From positions 2,501 through 24,161 of the forward strand of contig JAHBMJ010001959.1 in the NCBI GenBank assembly GCA_018398765.1: a stretch of 21,661 nt of DNA. The letters run 5' to 3'. A program made the translations under genes and the position numbers. This document shows, in pieces, positions 3,180 through 18,048 of this stretch. This stretch comes from Chromera velia (taxonomy: Eukaryota; Sar; Chromeraceae). Below the pieces are notes generated by a model that was not told where the DNA came from, made no database searches, and worked only from the letters and a program-made list of their open reading frames with translations. Position 1 is the stretch's first letter; each line of letters opens with the position of its first letter.

Positions 3180-4660
3180 CATTAACACTCTCACATCCAC
3201 ACGCCCGAACGGCTTTTGTTCATACACTCGCTCTCTCTGTCTCTCTTCGTTTATTTCTATTTATCCACAGGCCCTAGCGGCTTGAAGTTCTGTTTACACA
3301 CTGAGTCTCATTCTTTCTTAGTGACAGGCTGTCTCTATTCATTCAAGTACTCACACGCCCATGCAAATATCTTCTGCTGACATGCTTGTGTGAGTCCTTG
3401 TCCCTCTTCATTCACCCATACGCCCAACCGGCTCCTGTTCACCTAGCCTGTTCACACCAGTTCAGACACTCGCTTTGCCTGTCTGTGTTCATGCACCCAC
3501 ATTGTCGTGACGCCCCAAACGGCTTCTGTTTACACATTCGCTCTCCATGTCTCTCTTCATTATTCTTCATTAATTCACTGCATGAGGCCCAAGCAGCTTC
3601 TGTTCACACACTCGCTCTCCTTGTATCTCCTTGTCTCTCTTCATTCACCCACACGCCCAAACGGCTTCTGTTCACACACTTACTCTCCCTGTCTCTCTTA
3701 ATTCATCAGCAGGCCCAAGCAGCTTCTGTTCACGCACTTGATATCTCTTCATTCATCCACAGGCCTAGCCATAGGCCCGAGCGGCTTTTGTTTAATAACA
3801 CACAATTGATCCCTCTTCATTCATCTACAGGCTAGTCCATGGGCCTAAACGACTCCTGTTCCTAGCTTCTGTTCATACACTCGTTCTTCTTATCTCTCTT
3901 TCTTTGCCCGCAAGCCCAACCGGCTTCTGTTCACACACTCGCTCTCCTTGTATCTCCTGATCTCTCTTCATTCACCTACACGCCCAAGCGGCTTCTGTTC
4001 ACACACTCTCCTTATATCTCCTTGTCTCCCTTCATTCACCCACACACCCAAACGGCTTCTGTTCATACACTTGCTCTCTTTGTATCTTTTTATCTCCCTT
4101 CATTCACCTACATGCCCAAACGGCTTCTGTTCACATACTCGTTCTCCCTGTTTCTCTTCACTCATCCATAGGCCCAAGCAGCTTCTGTATGTTTCTGTTT
4201 ACACACTTGATCTTTCTTCATTCATCCACAGGCCTAACCAGCAGCCCAAGCGGCTTTTCTTCAATGACACACAATTGATCTCTCTTCATTCATCCACGGG
4301 CCTAAGCGGCTTCTGTTCATACACTCGTTCTTCTTGTCTTGCCCGCATGCCCAAACGGCTTCTGTTCACAAACTCATACATACTCATAAACACGCTCGCT
4401 CTCTCCGTCACGCCCAAACGGCTTCTGTTCACAAACTCATATATACATACTCATAAACATGCTCGCTCTCTCCGTCTCTCTTCATTCATCCACCTGCAGG
4501 CCTAAGCGGATTCTGTTACTGCACACACTTCTTTTCCATACCTCTTTTTCTCCATGCACCCGCACGCCCAAACATTCACCCACATGCCCAAAGGGCTTCT
4601 GTTCACACACTTGCTTACCTAGCTTTATCCACAGGCCCAAACGGCTTCTGTTCATATCTC
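3180..4660. repeat. Degenerate minisatellite, roughly 57-75 bp units, about 20 copies
   Basis: Units share a core of GCCCAAACGGCTTCTGTTCA, then ACACTCGCTCTC, then TGTCTCTCTTCATTCA and CCACAG/CACGC. The core (or a close variant such as GCAGCTTCTGTT or GCGGCTTTTGTT) recurs near 3205, 3427, 3520, 3595, 3660, 3719, 3780, 3920, 3988, 4052, 4118, 4177, 4248, 4304, 4355, 4418, 4504, 4600 and 4640. Unit length varies because the CTCTC/TGTCTC middle expands and contracts. The plus-strand open frames across it (for example 3386-3835 and 3948-4505) only translate the repeat, with RLLFTHS-like units recurring, and change frame between units. I read them as non-coding. The array is pyrimidine-rich on the plus strand, unlike the AT-rich DNA on both sides. 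Confidence 0.85.
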
Positions 4661-4699: not shown

Positions 4700-5103
4700 A
4701 AGCCTCTCCACAACATTTCAAAGCGAATACTACAGCATCCACAGCGACACACACTATATATAGACAGTATTTTGCATCCCAAATCCTCAAGTGGAGGTAG
4801 AAGGAAGTCGAGAAACCAGGTGCTGAAGAACGATAAGAGGGGCTAAGTAGAGAGAAAGAAGACGGGCAAAAAGTTTTTCCTCTTTGTCAAACGCACTCAG
4901 TCGTGGTGCGGCTCACTCCTGACTCTGTAAGGCGGCATGTCTTAACTTGCCACTGAGTTTTGTAGCATAGTCAAATAACAAAGCAATTCAGAAGAGCTTC
5001 ACTTAGACGGTGAGCTTTATCGCCTTCTTTGAAAACTATATAGATGATCGAATCTACGTACAATTCCCGTCCATGTGTGTTTTTGCATATGTACCGATAC
5101 ATC
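4700..5103. other. Intergenic sequence with no recognised gene
   Basis: This lies between the minisatellite and the 158 bp duplication. I see no coding signal, no tRNA-like boxes and no clear repeat. A short ACTATATATAGACAG string occurs near 4753, and the minus-strand frame at 4482-4790 mostly translates minisatellite units. Confidence 0.5.
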
Positions 5104-5419
5104 AAGGTTAGACGCATGTTCGCCATGCACACGCGCTGTACAGTTACCGGAAAGCGCAGGTCCCGAAAGGCAAATATAACCCGATTTATTGGTAATTCGA
5201 CTTTTTTTTTTCCATAGGTATGGCTAAGGGCCTTAACAGATACCATGGCCGGGGGCCACGGCAAGGTTAGACGCATGTTCGCCATGCATGCGCTGTACAG
5301 TTGCCGGAAAGCACGGGTCCCGAAAGGCAAATGTAACCCGATTTATTGGTAATTCGACTTTTTTTTTTCCATAGGTGCGGCTAAGGGCCTTAACAGATAC
5401 CATGGCCGGGGGCCACGGC
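5104..5419. repeat. Tandem duplication of a 157-159 bp unit
   Basis: Unit 1 is 5104-5262 and unit 2 is 5263-5419. Both start AAGGTTAGACGCATGTTCGC and end CCGGGGGCCACGGC. They differ by a 2 bp indel (CACACGCG versus CATGCG) and a handful of substitutions, so the duplication is recent. Each unit carries a T9-10 run followed by CCATAGGT; read on the minus strand this is ACCTATGG followed by A9-10. The GC-rich end forms a near-palindrome CCATGGCCGGGGGCCACGG. The minus-strand open frames at 4971-5330 and 5233-5421 are just two offsets of the same repeat, and I do not call them genes. A short non-autonomous element is possible, but no target-site duplication was found. Confidence 0.85.
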
Positions 5420-6224
5420 AATTAAAATGCTCAATTCGGCTGATGAGCTAGCTGGTGTACGAGCTAGCTGATAAGCTTCAAACATGCAGTTCAATCAACT
5501 TAGTAGTCAATCAATCATACACTGAATTAGTCAATTATAGGACTATAGTAGTAGTTACGGGGGCGACCTCTATAAGCCAGTCTCTAAGATAGAACGATAA
5601 CAGTGCTCTACCCTAGGCTCTATAGAGTACTACTAAATGACTTATCACTTACTGCTTATAATTGATTCAAATTAGATAACGACGGCGCGTCATAGCTAGC
5701 GTCATAGTCATAGTGAATTAACTATAACCGACTTTATAATCAAATTAATCTATAGCTTTAAAATTAAGTACCAGTTCAATGGTACGAATGTTATTCGGAA
5801 TGTGAGTACGTGCCAGCCTGAGTGTTGTAAGTGTAGTGTTAATATACAGTGTCGTAAAAATGTGTCTGAATATACAACTATATGCTTAAAACAAAAGATT
5901 GCAGGTCTTTAATTCTAGCTTTTTTTAAATGTGATTATATATTTAGGCCAAATTTCGTTTTCTTCATGTGATACAGACAGCGATGGAACAGGTCAAGTGA
6001 AGCATGCATTAATAATAGCAGGGTACATTCAGCTACACACTCAGACATCACTCAGAGCGTTGTCTCCATGATGACTGTCTGAAAGACTTGCCAATGAGAC
6101 ATCCAAAGATAATGGATCTATGCATGCCCGTCAACTTTTGAAGCCAAGTGCAAAATAACGTCATGAGAAATGCACGGATGCATGCGGCAACTCACAACAA
6201 AATTTGAGTGCATAATAGAGGCTT
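5420..6224. other. AT-rich intergenic sequence downstream of the GTPase gene
   Basis: No coding frame is seen. It contains a GAGCTAGCTG direct repeat (near 5445 and 5461) inside a locally palindromic AGCTAGCT-rich patch, CTCTATAAGCCA-type AT-rich DNA, and TGCATGC palindromes near 6003, 6120 and 6178. Any 3' UTR and polyadenylation signal of the minus-strand gene should lie just below 6225, but no clear signal could be picked out. Confidence 0.5.
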
Positions 6225-11383: not shown

Positions 11384-12676
11384 AAGAAAGAAAGAAAGAA
11401 AGAAAGAAACAAACAAACAAACAGAGGAAGCACACAGACCTCAATCCTATTCACGGTGCTTGTGCCACCACGGAACGCAGCGTCCCTCTCGGCCCGTGTC
11501 TGCATTGAATTTGTCGGTTCAACTTTCTTTCTATCTGCCTATCATTCTTCTTTCTCCTTCTCTTTCTTTGTCCGTCTTTCTATCTTTCAGTCTCTCTGAA
11601 GGCTATGAAGTCACACAAAGCAGGTGAGAAAGCCACGGAAAGGAAAGAGATATCTGCAAATTTCCCCGTCTCGGAAGGGGCCCGCCAACGAGGCTGTCAG
11701 CAGTGTTCATCCATCCATCCATCCATCCATCCAGAGAATACACTCAAAGAGCCTGCAGGCTTTAATTCACTGTCGACCGTGCCCCAGTAGGTTTTGATCT
11801 CTGCCGAATTCCTTTTTTTTGGGAACGCGCAGAAGCATTTGGAAGACTAGACATACCTGAACACCCTGAAGAAAACTGACCCACCTCGTCCTCTCCCGCG
11901 TCCCCTCTTTCCACTTTCCTCGCATGGGTGTGAAGATACGTCCCCTCTGGATTCATGCAAGCAAGCAGAAACGGACGGATAGGGAGAGAGAGAGAGAGAG
12001 GGAGAGCAAGCAAGCAAGCAAGAAAGAAAGAAAGAAGTCTATGAGGAATCGATCTCTGATCACGCTCCTGTGCCGATCGGGGACCTTGAATGCGGACTAG
12101 CTAGGGAGACGATCGAGACAGCCCTCCCTGGCGCATCCATGCATGCCACTTTAATTGGCCCTTTCAACCGATGTTGAAGTCAATTCTTGCTGAGCCAACC
12201 GCTAAAGGGGCCGCTCTGCACGTTCGTCTTCCCTCTCCCGTCTTCCTTTCGATGTTGCAGGCAGGCAGGAACAGACGCATTTCCCTCTCGTTCTCAAGAA
12301 AAGAAACAAAGACGCATTGAAGACACGGACAGCTAGACGGGGTGACCTTTGGCTCCCGGGACGAAGATTGGCATCAGATCGAATCCGTGTCTGCAAGCAA
12401 GAACGGAATCCATGATTGAATTGAGACGCGGTAAATCACTCAAAAGGAAAGAAAAAAAAGGAAGCAGGGAACGAAGGAAGGAAAGAAAGAAAGAAAGAAG
12501 CAAGCCAGCAAGCAAGCAAGCAAGCAAGAAAGAAAGAAAGAAAGGAAGGAAGGAAGGAACGAAGGAAGAAAACATCTGGAACGAGGCAAAAAGCTCATCA
12601 GAGTCAGCAAGGAAGGCATGAGTTTTCCTTTCCTCCGTCTCTCCTTTCTCTCTCTCTCTCTCTCTCTCTCTTTCTG

Positions 12677-12733
<57 letters not shown>

Positions 12734-13156
12734 CTGTGTGTGTGTGCAACCTTCATGTTCTGTCCTGCTCCCCTCCGCTAGTTTGCCACAGGAAGATTGC
12801 ACGTCTCTGTTGACTGACAAGATGCTTGCATGTCTGTCAGCCTTCCTTGATCATTCTCACGGTCACATGCATGCATGAATCGGATTGGATGCTGACCTGA
12901 CTGAAATTTTGGATGTCAAGCTCTGTGTCGTTTGGCAGATAACTTTGATGCGCTCCTCCTCTGAAGGAATGGCGTCGCACTTGCTCAGGCAGAAACTGCA
13001 GGCACACACGTTGATGCATGTCTGTCCGGGGAGATAAATCGAAGAGGTAGAAATCAGATACCAGAAGAGACAAACACTGATATGCAAAAAGAGAACGAAT
13101 TGACTCACAGACCAAGAGGGCATCGGCCGCGCAGACAGACTGGAAGGAAAGGAACG

Positions 13157-13202
<46 letters not shown>

Positions 13203-15854
13203 CGTCCACATACCAATACAAAGAGAAGCAGGGTCTAATTTACCGAATTTTGTCCGGATGCTTCTTGAAGAGAGCGTCGACCAACGAGAGGGTCCGCCTC
13301 CCAAGAGCCTGCCCAATCGGGTCGAAGAGAACTGCACAACAATTCATGGACGGACGTGCACTTTCTTTCTGATCGACTTCTCGCTCGCTCAGACCTCTCT
13401 GACAGGTAAAAATATGCAATTAAGGGATGAATCGTGGAAGGAACGAAGCAAGGAAGAGATGAAGAGAGGGACGACCCCATCTCAAGAGGATGCATGCAGA
13501 GAGAAAAGGTAAGAGGAGGCAATCCATCAGGCAGGCATGAAGGCAGGCACCAAAAGAAAGAAAGCAGGAAACAAACAAACAAACAAACAAAGAAAGAAAG
13601 AAAGAAAGAAAAAACTGACAGAGAACGATGTCGACGTGCTCGGCCAAGTCTCCCATCACGCCCATCACGTCAAAAGGGTATTGCATGTCCCCATCGGCCA
13701 GCCCCGGGGAGTCAATCAGGTCCAGCATGCACATTCTGCAGAGAATAAAAGGAAAAAACACAGGAACAAATTCGACTGTCTATGTGCTTGTGTATTTATA
13801 TATGTATGAATATCCATAGCTTCAAGTGTGTCGCATTCGACGGACAGATGAGATAGCTGAAGACATGAAGAAACACAAAACGAGTGTCGCTCCACTGCAC
13901 GCGCACGCATGTTTTGGAGAATTGGTGACGTTCCCCCTTCGCAAATGTATGAACCCCTTTGTCTCTTGTTGTGATCGAGGGGGGCTGCTCTTCTCTCCGA
14001 CCGCTCGCCCCTTTCCGTCCGACTTTTCGTCTTCAATTTTTAGTTGCTTTGTCGCTTTCCGAGAAATGACCTGTTGTAGTGAGGTACTGACCGATCAGAT
14101 GGACAGGTCTTGCAAGACAAATTTTCCAGGAATCCTGAGAGAGGAGGGACGGGAAGGGAAGGAGACACACCCATGCAGAGAGAGTGAGTGGAAGAGGAGA
14201 TCAAAAGAGGAATCCTGAGAGAGGAGGGACGGGAAGGGAAGGAGACACACCCATGCAGAGAGAGTGAGTGGAAGAGAAGATCAAAGGAGGAATCCTGAGA
14301 GAGGAGGGACGGGAAGGGAAGGAGACACACCCATGCAGAGAGAGTGAGTGGAAGAGGAGATCAAAAGAGGAATCCTGAGAGAGGAGGGACGGGAAGGGAA
14401 GGAGACACACCCATGCAGAGAGAGTGAGTGGAAGAGAAGATCAAAGGAGGAATCCTGAGAGAGGAGGGACGGGAAGGGAAGGAGACACACCCATGCAGAG
14501 AGAGTGAGTGGAAGAGAAGATCAAAGGAGGAATCCTGAGAGAGGAGGGACGGGAAGGGAAGGAGACACACCCATGCAGAGAGAGTGAGTGGAAGAGAAGA
14601 TCAAAGGAGGAATCCACCACAACACTTCTTGAGCAGTGGCGGGTCAGCTCGAAAGAATCTGGCAGGCAAAGAAAAAAAGAGCGAACAACAAGACTTTCTC
14701 TTTCAGTGAGATATTAATAGATGTTGAGGGTCCACAGAGGAACTCCTGATTCAGAGAGACGAATCCTCAATCGTCAATCGTCCTCTCCTCTCCTCTCCAT
14801 TCCATTCCGGTCAACTACCCACACGTCAGGCTGAAGGAATTGGAGTGACGGACGCATGAAGGAAGAATGCAGACACAGAAGAGTCCTCTGGCTGTGGGCT
14901 TTTGGTTCCTTTTGCAGCTGTGAAGGGGCGAACATTCGGGGTCCGAGGGGGGGCAGAGAAAAAAGGAGAAGAAGGAACTGAATAAGGAAAAGAAAAAGAA
15001 AAAAAAGGAAGACAGAAAAGGACGAAAGAAGACAGACACAGATCCACTGGCCGAAGCAAATGAGGACGGAAGGATGCAAGGAAGAAAGGAAGGAAAGACG
15101 GAAGACGCGAACCACACCAGAAACAAAGAAACAGCAAAACGCAGATAGATAAATAGATCGATAGATAGATAGACAGATAGATGAATAGATCGATAGATAG
15201 ATAGATAAATAGACAGATAGATACATACAGCACACCCCACGTGCAGGACCTCACCAGAATACTTCTCTGTCAGAGCCCTGAGGTAAGGCAGCAAGAGGAC
15301 AGTAGACTCTCCCTTCAGTTCGTTCACAGTGCTTCCACTGCATGTGAGCAAATTAGGTGCATCGGTCAACAGACAGACGTGCAAAGAGCCAGCACAGACA
15401 TAAGCAAATGCTCAGATGCTGACTCATACAAATCTACAGAAAGACCGGAAGGCGGGTGCATGGGGCGTGTAGGAAGGAATCAAGAGACTGATTCAGAGGC
15501 CCTCCACGGGTACAGGAAGAATGGAAGAAAGGCACATTGACTGCAAGTCTCTGTTGCTCCTGCATGTCTTTCTGCTGTCAGACAGAGAGATTGTGGGGCA
15601 GAGAGCTAAGCAGGTAAAGCGATTGGTCAGTTCATCTATTGTTTTCCAACCCCCCCCTATCCCAGGAAAAATATCTAGACTGAATCCTCAAGTTTGGACG
15701 GAGAAGGGGAACAGAGCACTGTAATAGAGAACAAACTCAGTTGGCTCATTGCTTGACTGACTATGTCACCACGGTCACTCCGTTTGTTTCTGCGCGGAAG
15801 CAAAAAAAACGCATACTGGTATTCACGCGCACACGCACTCGTGCTCTTTCTCCC

Positions 15855-15926
<72 letters not shown>

Positions 15927-18048
15927 AGAGAGAGAAGCAGAGAGGAAGAAAAGCGGGAGGGAGGGGGCTGTACTTATTCCCTACTGTTTTCTCAAGCGCC
16001 CGTGTGTGTACGAGTTTTTTGAATGCCGATTGAAAGGAGTGGCGAGATTCCATAAATGGATTTTTGGGAAGGGGTCGATGACTCATTCACGCAAGAGATG
16101 CACTGCTGCTGTGTCAAATCTATCTGCAATCCGTCGCTTTGCCTCTCTTCTTTTGTCTCTCGTCGTTTCCCACCTATCGCCACTCCCGTCTTTTGGAGAT
16201 GGTCTCCGGCATACCAATTGACACTGCAGTAGCAGCAAGAGCAGCCACAACAATTGGAAAGGCACACGGACAGGAAGAAAACAAATTGAAAAATGTCAAT
16301 TGTCTCTCAGGCTTCTCTAGAACAGAGCGGCCGGAAAAAAGACGATAAAACCAGGCGGATAGATGGAGAGGCAGACAGACTCTATGACTTCTTTTCCGTC
16401 CTTCTCTTCATGAACAGACACACAGACAGACTACATGGTTTCTTTCCCTCCGTCAACAGACAGACGGACACACAGACAGACTTAGAGACAGACAGACAGA
16501 CTATATGTTTCTTCTTCTTCCTTCTTTTCTTCATCTACACAATAGACAAAAGAAAGACAAACAGACACACAGACAGACTGTATGGTTTTTTCCCCTCCTC
16601 TTCTTCATGAACACAACAGACAAAGAGAAAGAAAGCAACAAAGACAGACAGGCAGGCAGGCAGACAGACAGACAGACTGTATGTTCTTTCTTTTCCTTTC
16701 CTTTCTCTTGAGACAGACTGCATGTTTCTTCTCCTCCCTTCTGAGACAAACAGACAGACAGACAGACAGAAACACAGACAAACTGTATGACTTCTTTTTT
16801 TCTTGTTCTTTCTTTTTTCCAGGCAGAAATGCAGACAGGCAGGTGGGCAGAAGGGTGAACATACCAGCAGGGAGAGGAGAAAAAACACAGAGACCGACAA
16901 TGTGCTCTTCCCAGCCGAAACGTTCCCAATGATCAGAGCCGAACACCTCGTGTGCACTGGATGGATCGAAGCATCGAAGCGTTTCGCTGCAGCCATTCCG
17001 ACAGACAACGAAATGAGAAGCTGGAGGGGCCGCTCTGTGCGGAGAAGACGTTACGTCGTTTCTGTCATTTCTGTAGGCCTTCCGTGCACCGTTAGCTGTT
17101 CCCAAAAGGAGAGAACCAACCAAAAAAGCTGGACGGACGCCGCAATTCAAGGCGCTGATGAAATATCGGACGATGGGTGCAGGTTTGTTTCCTCTCTATC
17201 TCCACCGACCGACCGACCAACCGATACAGGCGAGGCCGAGAGGCGGATCGGCTTCGTCATCCAGGTCGTCGTCCGGCCGCGGGAAGTAGAGATGCTCTAT
17301 CTGCAATCATTGGTCGCCCTCAGAGAAAGGGATGTACGGAGATGGGAAGACTGATGAGGGGAAGAAGAGGTGAACTGGGTGTGCCAGGGAATGGAAGGGT
17401 GGCGGCAGAGTGAAACACGATGTGCCGCTTTCACTCACTGTATGAATGTTGGGGGTGGGATAGCCCTTAGTGCACATCGAACCGAGAAGTAGAACAGAAA
17501 GAACAAGTGGACGAGGGAGGAGGGCAGAGAAGAAAGATGTGAATGAATCTGGGGGGACCGGCCAAGGGCAACAGAAGAAACTCACTGTGCACAAAAAAGA
17601 GAAGGAGCCAGCAACAAGAAGAGATAATGAAAGAGAGAGAGGCGGAGAAAAAGTGAGGGGTGGGGTGGGGGCTGGGAGAGAGGGAGGGAGAGAGAGAAAA
17701 AGGAAGGAAGGAACGAAGAAAGGAAGGATGGAGGGAAGAAAAAAAAAGAAACGAAACAGGAACGGGAGGAAGCATGGAAAGAAGGAAGCAGGCAGGAAAG
17801 CAAGCATGGAAAGAAGGAAGCAGGCAGGGAAGGAAGCAGGGAAAGAAGGAAGCAGGCAGGGAAGGAAGGAAGCGGGGAAAGAAAAAAACAGCAATAAATG
17901 AACGAATAAGAGTCCTGGGAGACAGAAACAAAGAAAGAAACGAGCAAAGGACGGGCGCAAGGAATGACAAAGAGAAAGCTCTGCTCCTTCCGACCTCTCT
18001 CATGATGCGCTGGATAAGATAGCGCTGCTTGTCAAGTGCACCGGCCAT
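6225..18048 (-). CDS. Dynamin/EHD-like GTPase with C-terminal membrane module, about 20 exons
   Basis: Exons in transcript order: 17995-18048, 17222-17300, 16899-16986, 16174-16223, 15762-15789, 15255-15337, 14092-14134, 13620-13735, 13244-13331, 12897-12995, 12347-12390, 11885-11946, 11440-11499, 10742-10842, 10158-10213, 8881-9082, 8426-8502, 7828-7979, then less certainly 6576-6845 and 6225-6443. The first 18 exons total 1482 nt (494 codons). All 17 of their junctions have GT-AG ends and matching phase, which is the main evidence. The protein has G1 GNVSAGKS (65-72), G3 DSPG (150-153), a FDPIGQAL segment (183-190) and G4 SKCD (214-217), in the order expected for Dynamin_N/EHD-type GTPases that bind and remodel membranes. 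It has no EH domain. Instead there are two hydrophobic helices near residues 352-377 and 448-467. The start codon at 18048 is the first ATG in phase. The GTPase call is firm; the family name rests on remembered motifs. Confidence 0.85.
6576..6845 (-). other. Probable GTPase exon 19, phase 0
   Basis: A strong acceptor (a CT-rich tract, then CCTACGCAG) opens a frame encoding YCTRSLECLSRQEFLGLQER, then a basic helix and a Pro/Ala/Ser-rich segment. Donor GGG|GTGAGG keeps phase 0. Exon 18 also ends in phase 0 (AGA|GTCGAT), so the join is consistent. If the last intron is retained, the frame ends at TAA 6519-6521. A second frame here (LYSEPRVPLSAGILGTPGAT) also stays open for about 55 codons, so the frame is not certain. 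Confidence 0.5.
7198..7347. repeat. Compound microsatellite (CTTT)n-(CT)n-(GT)n-(GA)n
   Basis: A chain of four simple tracts inside the last large intron of the GTPase gene. Apparent open frames over it translate to SLSLS and HTHTH strings and are not genes. Confidence 0.95.
7828..9082 (-). other. GTPase exons 16-18: membrane module
   Basis: Exon 16 (8881-9082, acceptor GTGCAG) encodes a 26-residue hydrophobic helix starting LRLWLGVFALSVIFGFLGFA, then a Gly/Ser linker (GTSSGTAGGGGGASSGGSG), and ends at donor GTGAGT. Exon 17 (8426-8502, acceptor CTGCAG) gives an amphipathic helix, SVVDLTEQMEEVVPLLAIAA. Exon 18 (7828-7979, acceptor GTGCAG) gives a second hydrophobic helix, LHLLGGALLVVLALALLQSV, followed by three cysteines and EEEED. 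The three Cys beside the membrane could be lipid-modified; that is inference. Confidence 0.8.
9130..9220. repeat. Compound (CA)n-(GA)n microsatellite in GTPase intron 15
   Basis: A CA tract with one AT interruption, followed by about 16 GA units. It lies about 50 bp upstream (in transcript sense) of the exon 16 acceptor. Confidence 0.95.
9400..9493. repeat. Compound (CTGT)n-(GT)n-(GA)n microsatellite in GTPase intron 15
   Basis: Simple tracts in the order CTGT, GT with a few interruptions, then GA. The same intron also has (CAGA)n at 9757-9802 and 9904-9926. Confidence 0.93.
10158..11946 (-). other. GTPase exons 12-15: charged helical middle region
   Basis: Exon 12 (11885-11946) encodes GTYLHTHARKVERGDAGEDE. 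Exon 13 (11440-11499) encodes TRAERDAAFRGGTSTVNRIE, is exactly 60 nt and is in phase 0 at both ends. Exon 14 (10742-10842, donor GTAAGT) encodes DLCDDIRKCVERKVQDGLAA and a further Lys/Leu-rich helix. Exon 15 (10158-10213, donor GTCAGT) encodes VVMQEKERQRKNAVRRGK. The region looks like a helical stalk that ends in a basic patch directly before the first membrane helix. Confidence 0.78.
11155..11423. repeat. Cluster of (ATCC)n, (GAAA)n, (CAGA)n, (GAAA)n and (CAAA)n in GTPase intron 13
   Basis: ATCC units run to about 11188. GAAA/CAGA/GAAA/CAAA blocks follow from 11279 to 11423, with an ACTATATGTTTCAGAC string at 11332-11347 joining two of them. Another ATCC tract is at 11708-11732 in intron 12. 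Confidence 0.93.
11984..12034. repeat. (GA)n, (GCAA)n and (GAAA)n tracts in GTPase intron 11
   Basis: Short adjacent simple tracts. The remaining intron sequence (12035-12346) is not repetitive, but I see no exon in it that keeps phase. Confidence 0.85.
12477..12747. repeat. Purine tetranucleotide field, then (CT)n-(CTGT)n-(CT)n-(GT)n
   Basis: Located in GTPase intron 10. GAAA, GCAA, GAAA and GGAA blocks occupy 12477-12560, and a pyrimidine compound tract occupies 12646-12747. This is one of the few places where the plus strand is locally pyrimidine-rich inside the minus-strand gene. Confidence 0.92.
13158..13199. repeat. (CA)n microsatellite in GTPase intron 9
   Basis: About 21 CA units between exons 9 and 10. 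A further (CAAA)n-(GAAA)n tract sits at 13570-13611 in intron 8, directly next to the exon 8 donor. Confidence 0.95.
14092..14134 (-). other. GTPase exon 7, 43 nt, next to the splice-site array
   Basis: This short exon encodes FLENLSCKTCPSD with split Gly and Arg codons and ends at donor CG|GTCAGT. Its acceptor CTCTCAG|GATTCCT is the last member of the tandem 80 bp array at 14131-14610. Phase in from exon 6 and out to exon 8 both match, and the spacing to the G3 motif fits. The sequence itself is not diagnostic. Confidence 0.62.
14131..14610 (-). repeat. Six exact 80 bp tandem units carrying a 3' splice site
   Basis: Units begin at 14131, 14211, 14291, 14371, 14451 and 14531, with the first five bases repeated once more at 14611. 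Two variants differ at two places (GAGGAGATCAAAAG versus GAGAAGATCAAAGG) in the order A-B-A-B-B-B. On the transcribed minus strand every unit carries TCTCTGCATG, a CT tract (CTTCCCTTCCCGTCCCTCC), TCTCTCAG and then GATTCCT. The unit nearest exon 7 supplies its acceptor. The array lies in intron 6, which with it reaches 1120 bp. The minus-strand open frames in the array only translate the unit. Confidence 0.97.
15146..15228. repeat. (GATA)n microsatellite with CAGATA interruptions, GTPase intron 6
   Basis: Runs of GATA/GATC/AATA units lie just downstream (in transcript sense) of exon 6. Confidence 0.93.
15255..15789 (-). other. GTPase exons 5-6: switch region, including a 28 nt micro-exon
   Basis: Exon 5 (15762-15789) is only 28 nt. 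It starts after CGCAG and ends at donor GTCAGT. It supplies ETNGVTVVT with split codons at both ends, which aligns with the switch I/G2 area of the family as I remember it. Exon 6 (15255-15337) supplies GSTVNELKGESTVLLLPYLR and the residues ALTEKYS, then ends at TCTG|GTGAGG. Confidence 0.78.
15858..15936. repeat. Compound (CT)n-(CA)n-(GA)n microsatellite, GTPase intron 4
   Basis: Three simple tracts in a row, about 70 bp upstream (in transcript sense) of the 28 nt exon 5. Confidence 0.95.
16174..16986 (-). other. GTPase exons 3-4: P-loop and following helix
   Basis: Exon 3 (16899-16986, acceptor CTGCAG) ends ...SALIIGNVSAGKST, a Walker A/G1 loop of the GxxxxGKS type. Exon 4 (16174-16223, acceptor CTGCAG, donor ATAG|GTGGGA) continues VNWYAGDHLQKTGVAI. 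The split Phe codon (TT|T) joins them as GKST-F-VNW, in place of the false Leu that reading into the intron would give. The Gly-Lys-Ser of the loop is intact, so nucleotide binding is expected. Confidence 0.88.
16350..16830. repeat. Interspersed (CAGA)n plus ACTATATG-type repeat array, GTPase intron 3
   Basis: A compound unit recurs at least seven times: (CAGA)2-5, CT, then A-T-rich TATATG/GTATG/ACATG/GCATG, then TTTCTT and a CT-rich run of 20-40 bp (often CTTCTTCATGAACA). Starts are near 16372, 16426, 16490, 16567, 16660, 16712 and 16770. Units are 50-90 bp and not exactly periodic. Related copies occur near 9735, 9850 and 11330 in other introns of the same gene. Confidence 0.8.
17222..18048 (-). 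other. GTPase exons 1-2: N-terminal acidic segment
   Basis: Exon 1 (17995-18048) reads MAGALDKQRYLIQRIMRE and ends at donor GAG|GTCGGA in phase 0. Exon 2 (17222-17300), after a TTGCAG acceptor, gives IEHLYFPRPDDDLDDEADPP and ends one base into a codon at ATCG|GTTGGT. The Asp/Glu-rich stretch precedes the G domain. The intron between them (17301-17994) is a purine-rich repeat field on the plus strand. Confidence 0.7.
17640..17885. repeat. Purine-rich field with a roughly 33 bp minisatellite, GTPase intron 1
   Basis: Almost pure A/G on the plus strand. Units with GGAAAGAAGGAAGCAGGCAG recur near 17775, 17807 and 17839. Confidence 0.85.

Follow-up and report, generated by a model that had tools for sequence, protein, structure and literature searches.

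A tandemly multiplied predicted splice acceptor in an EHD-like GTPase gene of Chromera velia is probably a tolerated, mirage-type minisatellite

RESULTS

Intron 6 of an EHD-like GTPase gene of Chromera velia ends in a tandem array of six 80-bp units, every one of which carries a candidate 3′ splice site. The duplication itself is real and involves a predicted splice acceptor. As judged from its sequence, the array is most likely a minisatellite of the "mirage" type, known from lancelets and present here in a new lineage. It probably resembles the lancelet repeats in being tolerated by its gene and is probably not a switch.

Organization of the array

The window, i.e., the whole stretch of 21,661 nucleotides (nt) that was analyzed, yielded 53 rows in Tandem Repeats Finder (TRF), and the top-scoring one (14128 to 14615; period 80, 6.1 copies, 98% matches, no indels, score 948) corresponds to this array. 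On the minus strand, six units of 80 bp run from 14614 down to 14135, with starts at 14614, 14534, 14454, 14374, 14294, and 14214, and are followed at 14134 by the GATTCCT of exon 7. The initial annotation had located the array at 14131..14610; an array indeed lies there, but these coordinates are 4 bases off the unit frame of the minus strand. It had also spoken of six exact units, which is slightly too strong, since the six 80-nt units fall into two variants. Units 1, 2, 3, and 5 (variant B) are identical, as are units 4 and 6 (variant A), and the variants mismatch solely at unit positions 9 and 18, the units being 97.5 to 100% alike. The order in the transcript is therefore B-B-B-A-B-A, which is the A-B-A-B-B-B order given earlier for the plus strand.

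Each unit (14135..14614, minus strand) consists of GATTCCT, branch-point-like motifs, a polypyrimidine tract, and CTCTCAG, an anatomy that bears out the tract, CTCTCAG, and ensuing GATTCCT previously assigned to every unit. Pyrimidines make up 80% of the 80 nt. When scanned with the branch-point consensus, every unit contained two yUnAy-like motifs, whose A residues are situated 66 and 50 nt upstream of the end of the unit. AG occurs just once per unit, in the terminal CAG, and the border between units reads CAG/GATT. All six units agree in their last 62 nt, which comprise the tract and the CAG, and the string CTCTCAGGATTCCT occurs six times in the window, each time within the array. On the plus strand, a donor-like string, GAGAGAGTGAGT, is present once per unit, six times between 14178 and 14589.

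Several other identities were considered for the array. A structured RNA element was ruled out, because the folded array was no more stable than shuffled sequences (z = +1.35; 88 of 100 shuffles were at least as stable). When two units were used to search the genome (178 Mb in 4,040 contigs) by a procedure that skips common words, the scored matches were the array itself only, which ruled out a dispersed element. The same search showed no dispersed copies among its scored matches, and the unit border is CAG/GATT rather than AG/GT; an introner-type or recursive-splicing element was rejected on these two grounds. No Rfam family matched the window at or above its gathering score.

The array adjoins the predicted exon 7 acceptor of a GTPase gene

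The gene in question occupies 12333..18048 on the minus strand and belongs to the dynamin superfamily, as indicated by its frame, homology, and profile matches. Our hand model of it is incomplete: the outer exons are predicted, and exon 5 was not found. Exon 6 (15255..15337, 83 nt, donor CTG/GTGAGG) was placed by frame, with its 3′ part aligned to EHD4. Exon 7 (14092..14134, 43 nt, donor CG/GTCAGT) was placed by frame and the EHD4 alignment. Exon 8 (13620..13735), which codes for LIDSPGLADG with the DxPG motif and for HVDIVL, was placed by alignment, its end being set by the frame. All three lie on the minus strand.

Joining exons 3, 6, 7, and 8 gave seven matches in the PDB at E values up to 10. 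Six of them were EHD4 or EHD2, all weak (E = 0.076 to 1.4), and the seventh was an unrelated regulator (E = 0.49). In this weak match of the short join, the EHD4 alignment is gap free from exon 6 through exons 7 and 8 as far as DSPG (FLENLSCKTCPSDRMCMLDLIDSPG versus FLNRFMCSQLPNQVLKSISIIDSPG), and the 43 nt of exon 7 are required for the frame between exons 6 and 8. The longer hand model matched EHD4 at E = 4.8e-7 and EHD2 at about 1e-5. It shares with these proteins (PDB 7sox and 2qpt) the P-loop, GNVSAGKST, the DSPG motif, and similarity over residues 61 to 212 of the model. It differs from them in ending without an EH domain, after HGFDLMPIFVPGAKGHPV, where the gene ends are uncertain; no EH family was matched in Pfam. 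The Pfam family Dynamin_N was matched below its curated cutoff (E = 2.2e-4; 21.7 bits versus a gathering score of 27) and over residues 63 to 90 only, in a model lacking exon 5. These data agree with the strand, the GTPase gene, and the exon 7 acceptor proposed in the initial annotation, and the predicted acceptor at 14134 is supported by both homology and frame.

A paralogue that might represent a single-copy ancestor was not found, as all matches of two protein queries (3 of 3 and 8 of 8) fell on the window's own contig. Another intron of the gene holds three degenerate copies of a 77-bp unit (16413-16632, TRF).

Upstream acceptors lead to a common stop codon

The candidate exon starts are 14534, 14454, 14374, 14294, 14214, and 14134. 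As no AG precedes the first unit, the first upstream AG lies at 14535..14536 (minus strand, exon start 14534), and four more follow at 80-nt steps. With identity over 62 nt, the six candidates are equal, as had been suggested. We compared the exon 7 acceptor with the other acceptors of the hand model, nine in total (exons 2, 3, 4, and 6 to 11). Its tract is the richest in pyrimidines, with a fraction of 0.95 versus 0.45 to 0.86 elsewhere, and it is preceded by an AG-free stretch of 78 nt, the range for the other eight being 16 to 78 nt.

Upstream acceptors would lengthen exon 7 to between 123 and 443 nt. As 80 is not divisible by 3, the annotation had concluded that the acceptor at 14134 alone keeps the frame, which holds whenever exon 6 is included. 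It had excepted the joint inclusion of three units (240 nt); that exception fails, for here too a TGA ends 14 nt after the junction. In fact, each of the five upstream acceptors leads to an in-frame TGA ending at this distance if exon 6 is present. A length switch through three units is thereby ruled out, and the choice of acceptor alone cannot act as the "length switch" for the protein that had been envisaged. We then considered exon 6 in or out combined with zero to five units. Two of these 12 combinations reach exon 8 in frame, namely, the normal form and the one in which exon 6 (83 nt) is skipped and exactly one unit is included (−83 + 80 nt); the latter form presupposes the acceptor predicted for exon 6 at 15337.

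Inclusion of one unit would place the stop 109 nt upstream of the exon 7 donor (123 minus 14), and each additional unit would increase this distance. Under the usual rule of about 50 nt, mRNAs spliced to an upstream copy would be targets of nonsense-mediated decay (NMD), and the genome encodes a UPF1 zinc-binding domain (E = 3.7e-59). A decoy with loss of function is possible.

The predicted splice products can be told apart by sequence. After the TATTCTG that ends exon 6, the predicted true junction continues with GATTCCTGGAAAA, the B decoys with GATTCCTCCTTTG, and the A decoys with GATTCCTCTTTTG. In decoy products, exon 6 would be joined to GATTCCTCC or GATTCCTCT. Because the first 7 bases are common to all junctions, an overhang of at least 9 nt is needed to separate the three strings.

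A short repeat flanks the array on both sides

An 8-bp string, GGATTCCT, borders the array at either end. Its inner copy (14128..14135, minus strand) is made up of the final intron base and the first 7 bases of exon 7, and its outer copy (14608..14615, minus strand) is intronic and has no AG before it. The string occurs at seven places in the window, which are both outer edges of the array and every inner unit border. Judging by this layout, a single-copy ancestor would have carried GGATTCCT once at the exon border and, at a distance of 80 nt, once in the intron, and such a repeat would suffice for slippage or unequal exchange. Since the string also stands at the outer, intronic edge, the seven exon-like bases of each unit are no proof of a copied exon; they may instead be the microhomology that seeded the array. 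The presence of only two variant sites in 80 suggests recent growth or homogenization. Growth by 80- and 160-bp steps, as proposed earlier from the order of the variants, is one possible path among others.

Tandem repeats in the genome and in the window

To judge how common such arrays are, we sampled the genome in 20 regions, two of which have long runs of N; 186,873 bases other than N were covered. TRF arrays took up 4.6% of these bases. The share was 0.89% for arrays with a period of 30 or more (8 arrays) and 0.17% for arrays with at least 90% matches and no fewer than 3 copies (1 array, at L007:5295-5614, with a 45-bp unit, 7.1 copies, and 99% matches). Tandem repeats are thus common here, and in a genome with very many acceptors, some arrays should land on acceptors by chance if they are placed at random. 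This argument is weak, however, as only one sampled array had at least 3 copies at 90% or more, and none of the 8 arrays with a period of at least 30 was shown to lie on an acceptor or to be a second mirage (two of them, in L018 and L007, were read in context). The L018 array, which has two copies of 72 bp with TTTCAG in the unit, was rejected as a mirage and read as coding on account of its 24-codon period and a minus-strand frame open over all of the 401 bases translated. This perfect tandem pair (L018:4713-4856) is likely an in-frame protein repeat.

Other repeats were seen in the window. At 5103-5421, a dispersed repeat of 157 bp is present as a head-to-tail dimer, which contains a T-run and CCATAGGT. 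The 157-bp repeat has at least 42 matches in the genome, the dimer itself included (144 candidates, 40 scored). Degenerate minisatellites of 58 to 68 bp, pyrimidine rich on the plus strand, account for several TRF rows at 3514-4592.

Comparison with known repeats at splice sites

In amphioxus, mirages are described as minisatellite-like tandem duplications of the 3′ end of an intron plus the 5′ part of the exon, with cases in BflGb6, BflGb9, and Adh3 (PMC3087553). The account given there reports BflGb6 haplotypes of 6 and 3 units with splice signals in many units, and the RT-PCR results are read in it as mirages not interfering with regular splicing. A second lancelet paper (PMC3902484) states that no aberrant mRNAs arise from the Adh and TnC mirages and proposes that this also holds for PGBD5. 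The array studied here likewise consists of tandem, minisatellite-like copies (period 80, 6.1 copies, 98% matches), with splice signals in its units and a last unit ending at the predicted exon 7 acceptor. It thus shares with the amphioxus mirages, as they are presented in PMC3087553, the head-to-tail copies across an intron-exon boundary and the splice signals, and its six units equal those of one BflGb6 haplotype. It differs in lying in a probable alga genome, in having an exonic share of 7 nt only per unit (which may be microhomology), and in being known from DNA alone. Its units are 97.5 to 100% identical versus 81 to 100% for BflGb6 (PMC3087553).

Two further systems are related more distantly. 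The lancelet PGBD5 gene has 60- and 108-bp repeats over splice sites; these are imperfect and belong to another gene, and the source weighs heterozygosity and assembly error in their case (PMC3902484). Intron gain by tandem genomic duplication, as treated in PMC4974935, is alike in that duplication within a gene supplies raw material for new gene structure. That work reports a new intron, whereas none is seen in this array, whose unit border is CAG/GATT, not AG/GT. In the open-access literature, we found no mirage reports outside lancelets.

DISCUSSION

We consider it probable that the array is a tolerated mirage-type minisatellite, of which the last acceptor is used and any stray use of another yields a decay-prone mRNA. 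An 80-nt stretch ending at the intron 6 acceptor, with GGATTCCT on both sides, would have been multiplied by slippage or unequal exchange, giving rise to about six equal acceptors. The splicing machinery would mainly take the last one, which alone has the whole of exon 7 after it. Any other copy would lead to the TGA within 14 nt, over 100 nt upstream of the following exon junction, and thus to NMD. The array would then be tolerated, and any loss of transcript that it causes would be small at most and would depend on the copy number. The support for this account lies in the array and its anatomy, the frames and stops, the homology of exons 6 to 8, and the UPF1 domain in the genome, from which we infer the use of the last acceptor, decay, an origin by slippage, and the absence of selection. 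There are counterpoints. Over 62 nt, the six acceptors do not differ, and the sequence offers no proof that the last one would prevail. At 43 nt, exon 7 is very short, and splicing to an upstream acceptor would give a longer exon; effects of both proximity and exon context are known from tests with duplicated splice sites. Since their tract is the most pyrimidine rich of the nine acceptors compared, the upstream copies may well be used.

How far the six units and the order B-B-B-A-B-A can be trusted is a separate matter, as a true tandem duplication whose copy number and order are products of assembly would be compatible with any of the other readings, and the respective odds are not exclusive. 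We regard such a product as a serious possibility, albeit not the likelier case. According to the assembly description in PMC4501334, the published Chromera velia assembly (193.66 Mb) is Illumina based and was made by velvet at k=71 with gap filling. The genome analyzed here is close to it in size, has a G+C fraction near 0.49 to 0.50, and encodes a nuclear PsaD with 100% identity over 124 amino acids to PDB 9hyu_D; the PsaA/PsaB family was not found in the assembly. The array contains 159 distinct 71-mers more than once (up to 4 times each), and the count of six is provisional for that reason if a short-read assembly at k=71 applies. Seven of the 20 sampled regions contain short runs of N, in keeping with a scaffolded short-read assembly, and the BflGb6 mirage appears misassembled in the amphioxus genome draft (PMC3087553). 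On the other hand, the window contains no N, and the stretch common to A and B between the variant sites, 70 nt, is just spanned by k=71.

The remaining alternatives concern function and the gene model. It had been suggested that the array acts as a tunable decoy or is simply tolerated; by the amphioxus precedent, our analysis favors toleration, and the regulated-decoy reading is unsupported. In its fullest form, poisonous acceptors would take a regulated share of splicing, and the copy number together with a tract-binding factor would set the GTPase level. The five extra full acceptors with their identical tract and single AG, the same stop after each of them, and the UPF1 domain would all suit such a rheostat, yet units so nearly identical suggest that growth was recent or homogenized, and amphioxus mirages of like layout are reported without splicing disturbance; we hold this to be unlikely. 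Less credible still is its extension, in which the unit number sets the loss to the uniform TGA and skipping of exon 6 with one unit opens a second route, by which array sequence translated in frame would replace exon 6 with about 26 residues. It is also rather improbable that the units serve not as decoys but as an intronic enhancer, or a sink for pyrimidine-tract proteins, that aids inclusion of exon 7. This idea draws on 480 nt of 80%-pyrimidine units beside a very short exon and is countered by the true acceptor, which on its own is already the most pyrimidine rich of the nine. Finally, the exon 7 model could be wrong and the array an ordinary intronic minisatellite away from any used acceptor, as might be argued from the missing exon 5, the short exon 7, and the weak EHD matches of the first join (E = 0.076 to 1.4). 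We give this little credence, since exon 7 is needed for the frame of exons 6 to 8 and is gap free in the EHD4 alignment, and the longer model reaches E = 4.8e-7.

If the array is indeed a tolerated mirage, minisatellites of this type would reach beyond lancelets into a photosynthetic protist, and the number of copies may vary between strains. The array would also constitute a natural competition test, in which acceptors are identical over 62 nt and the true one can be distinguished from the decoys by base 8 past the junction and those beyond it. It illustrates how a gene might survive the multiplication of one of its acceptors.
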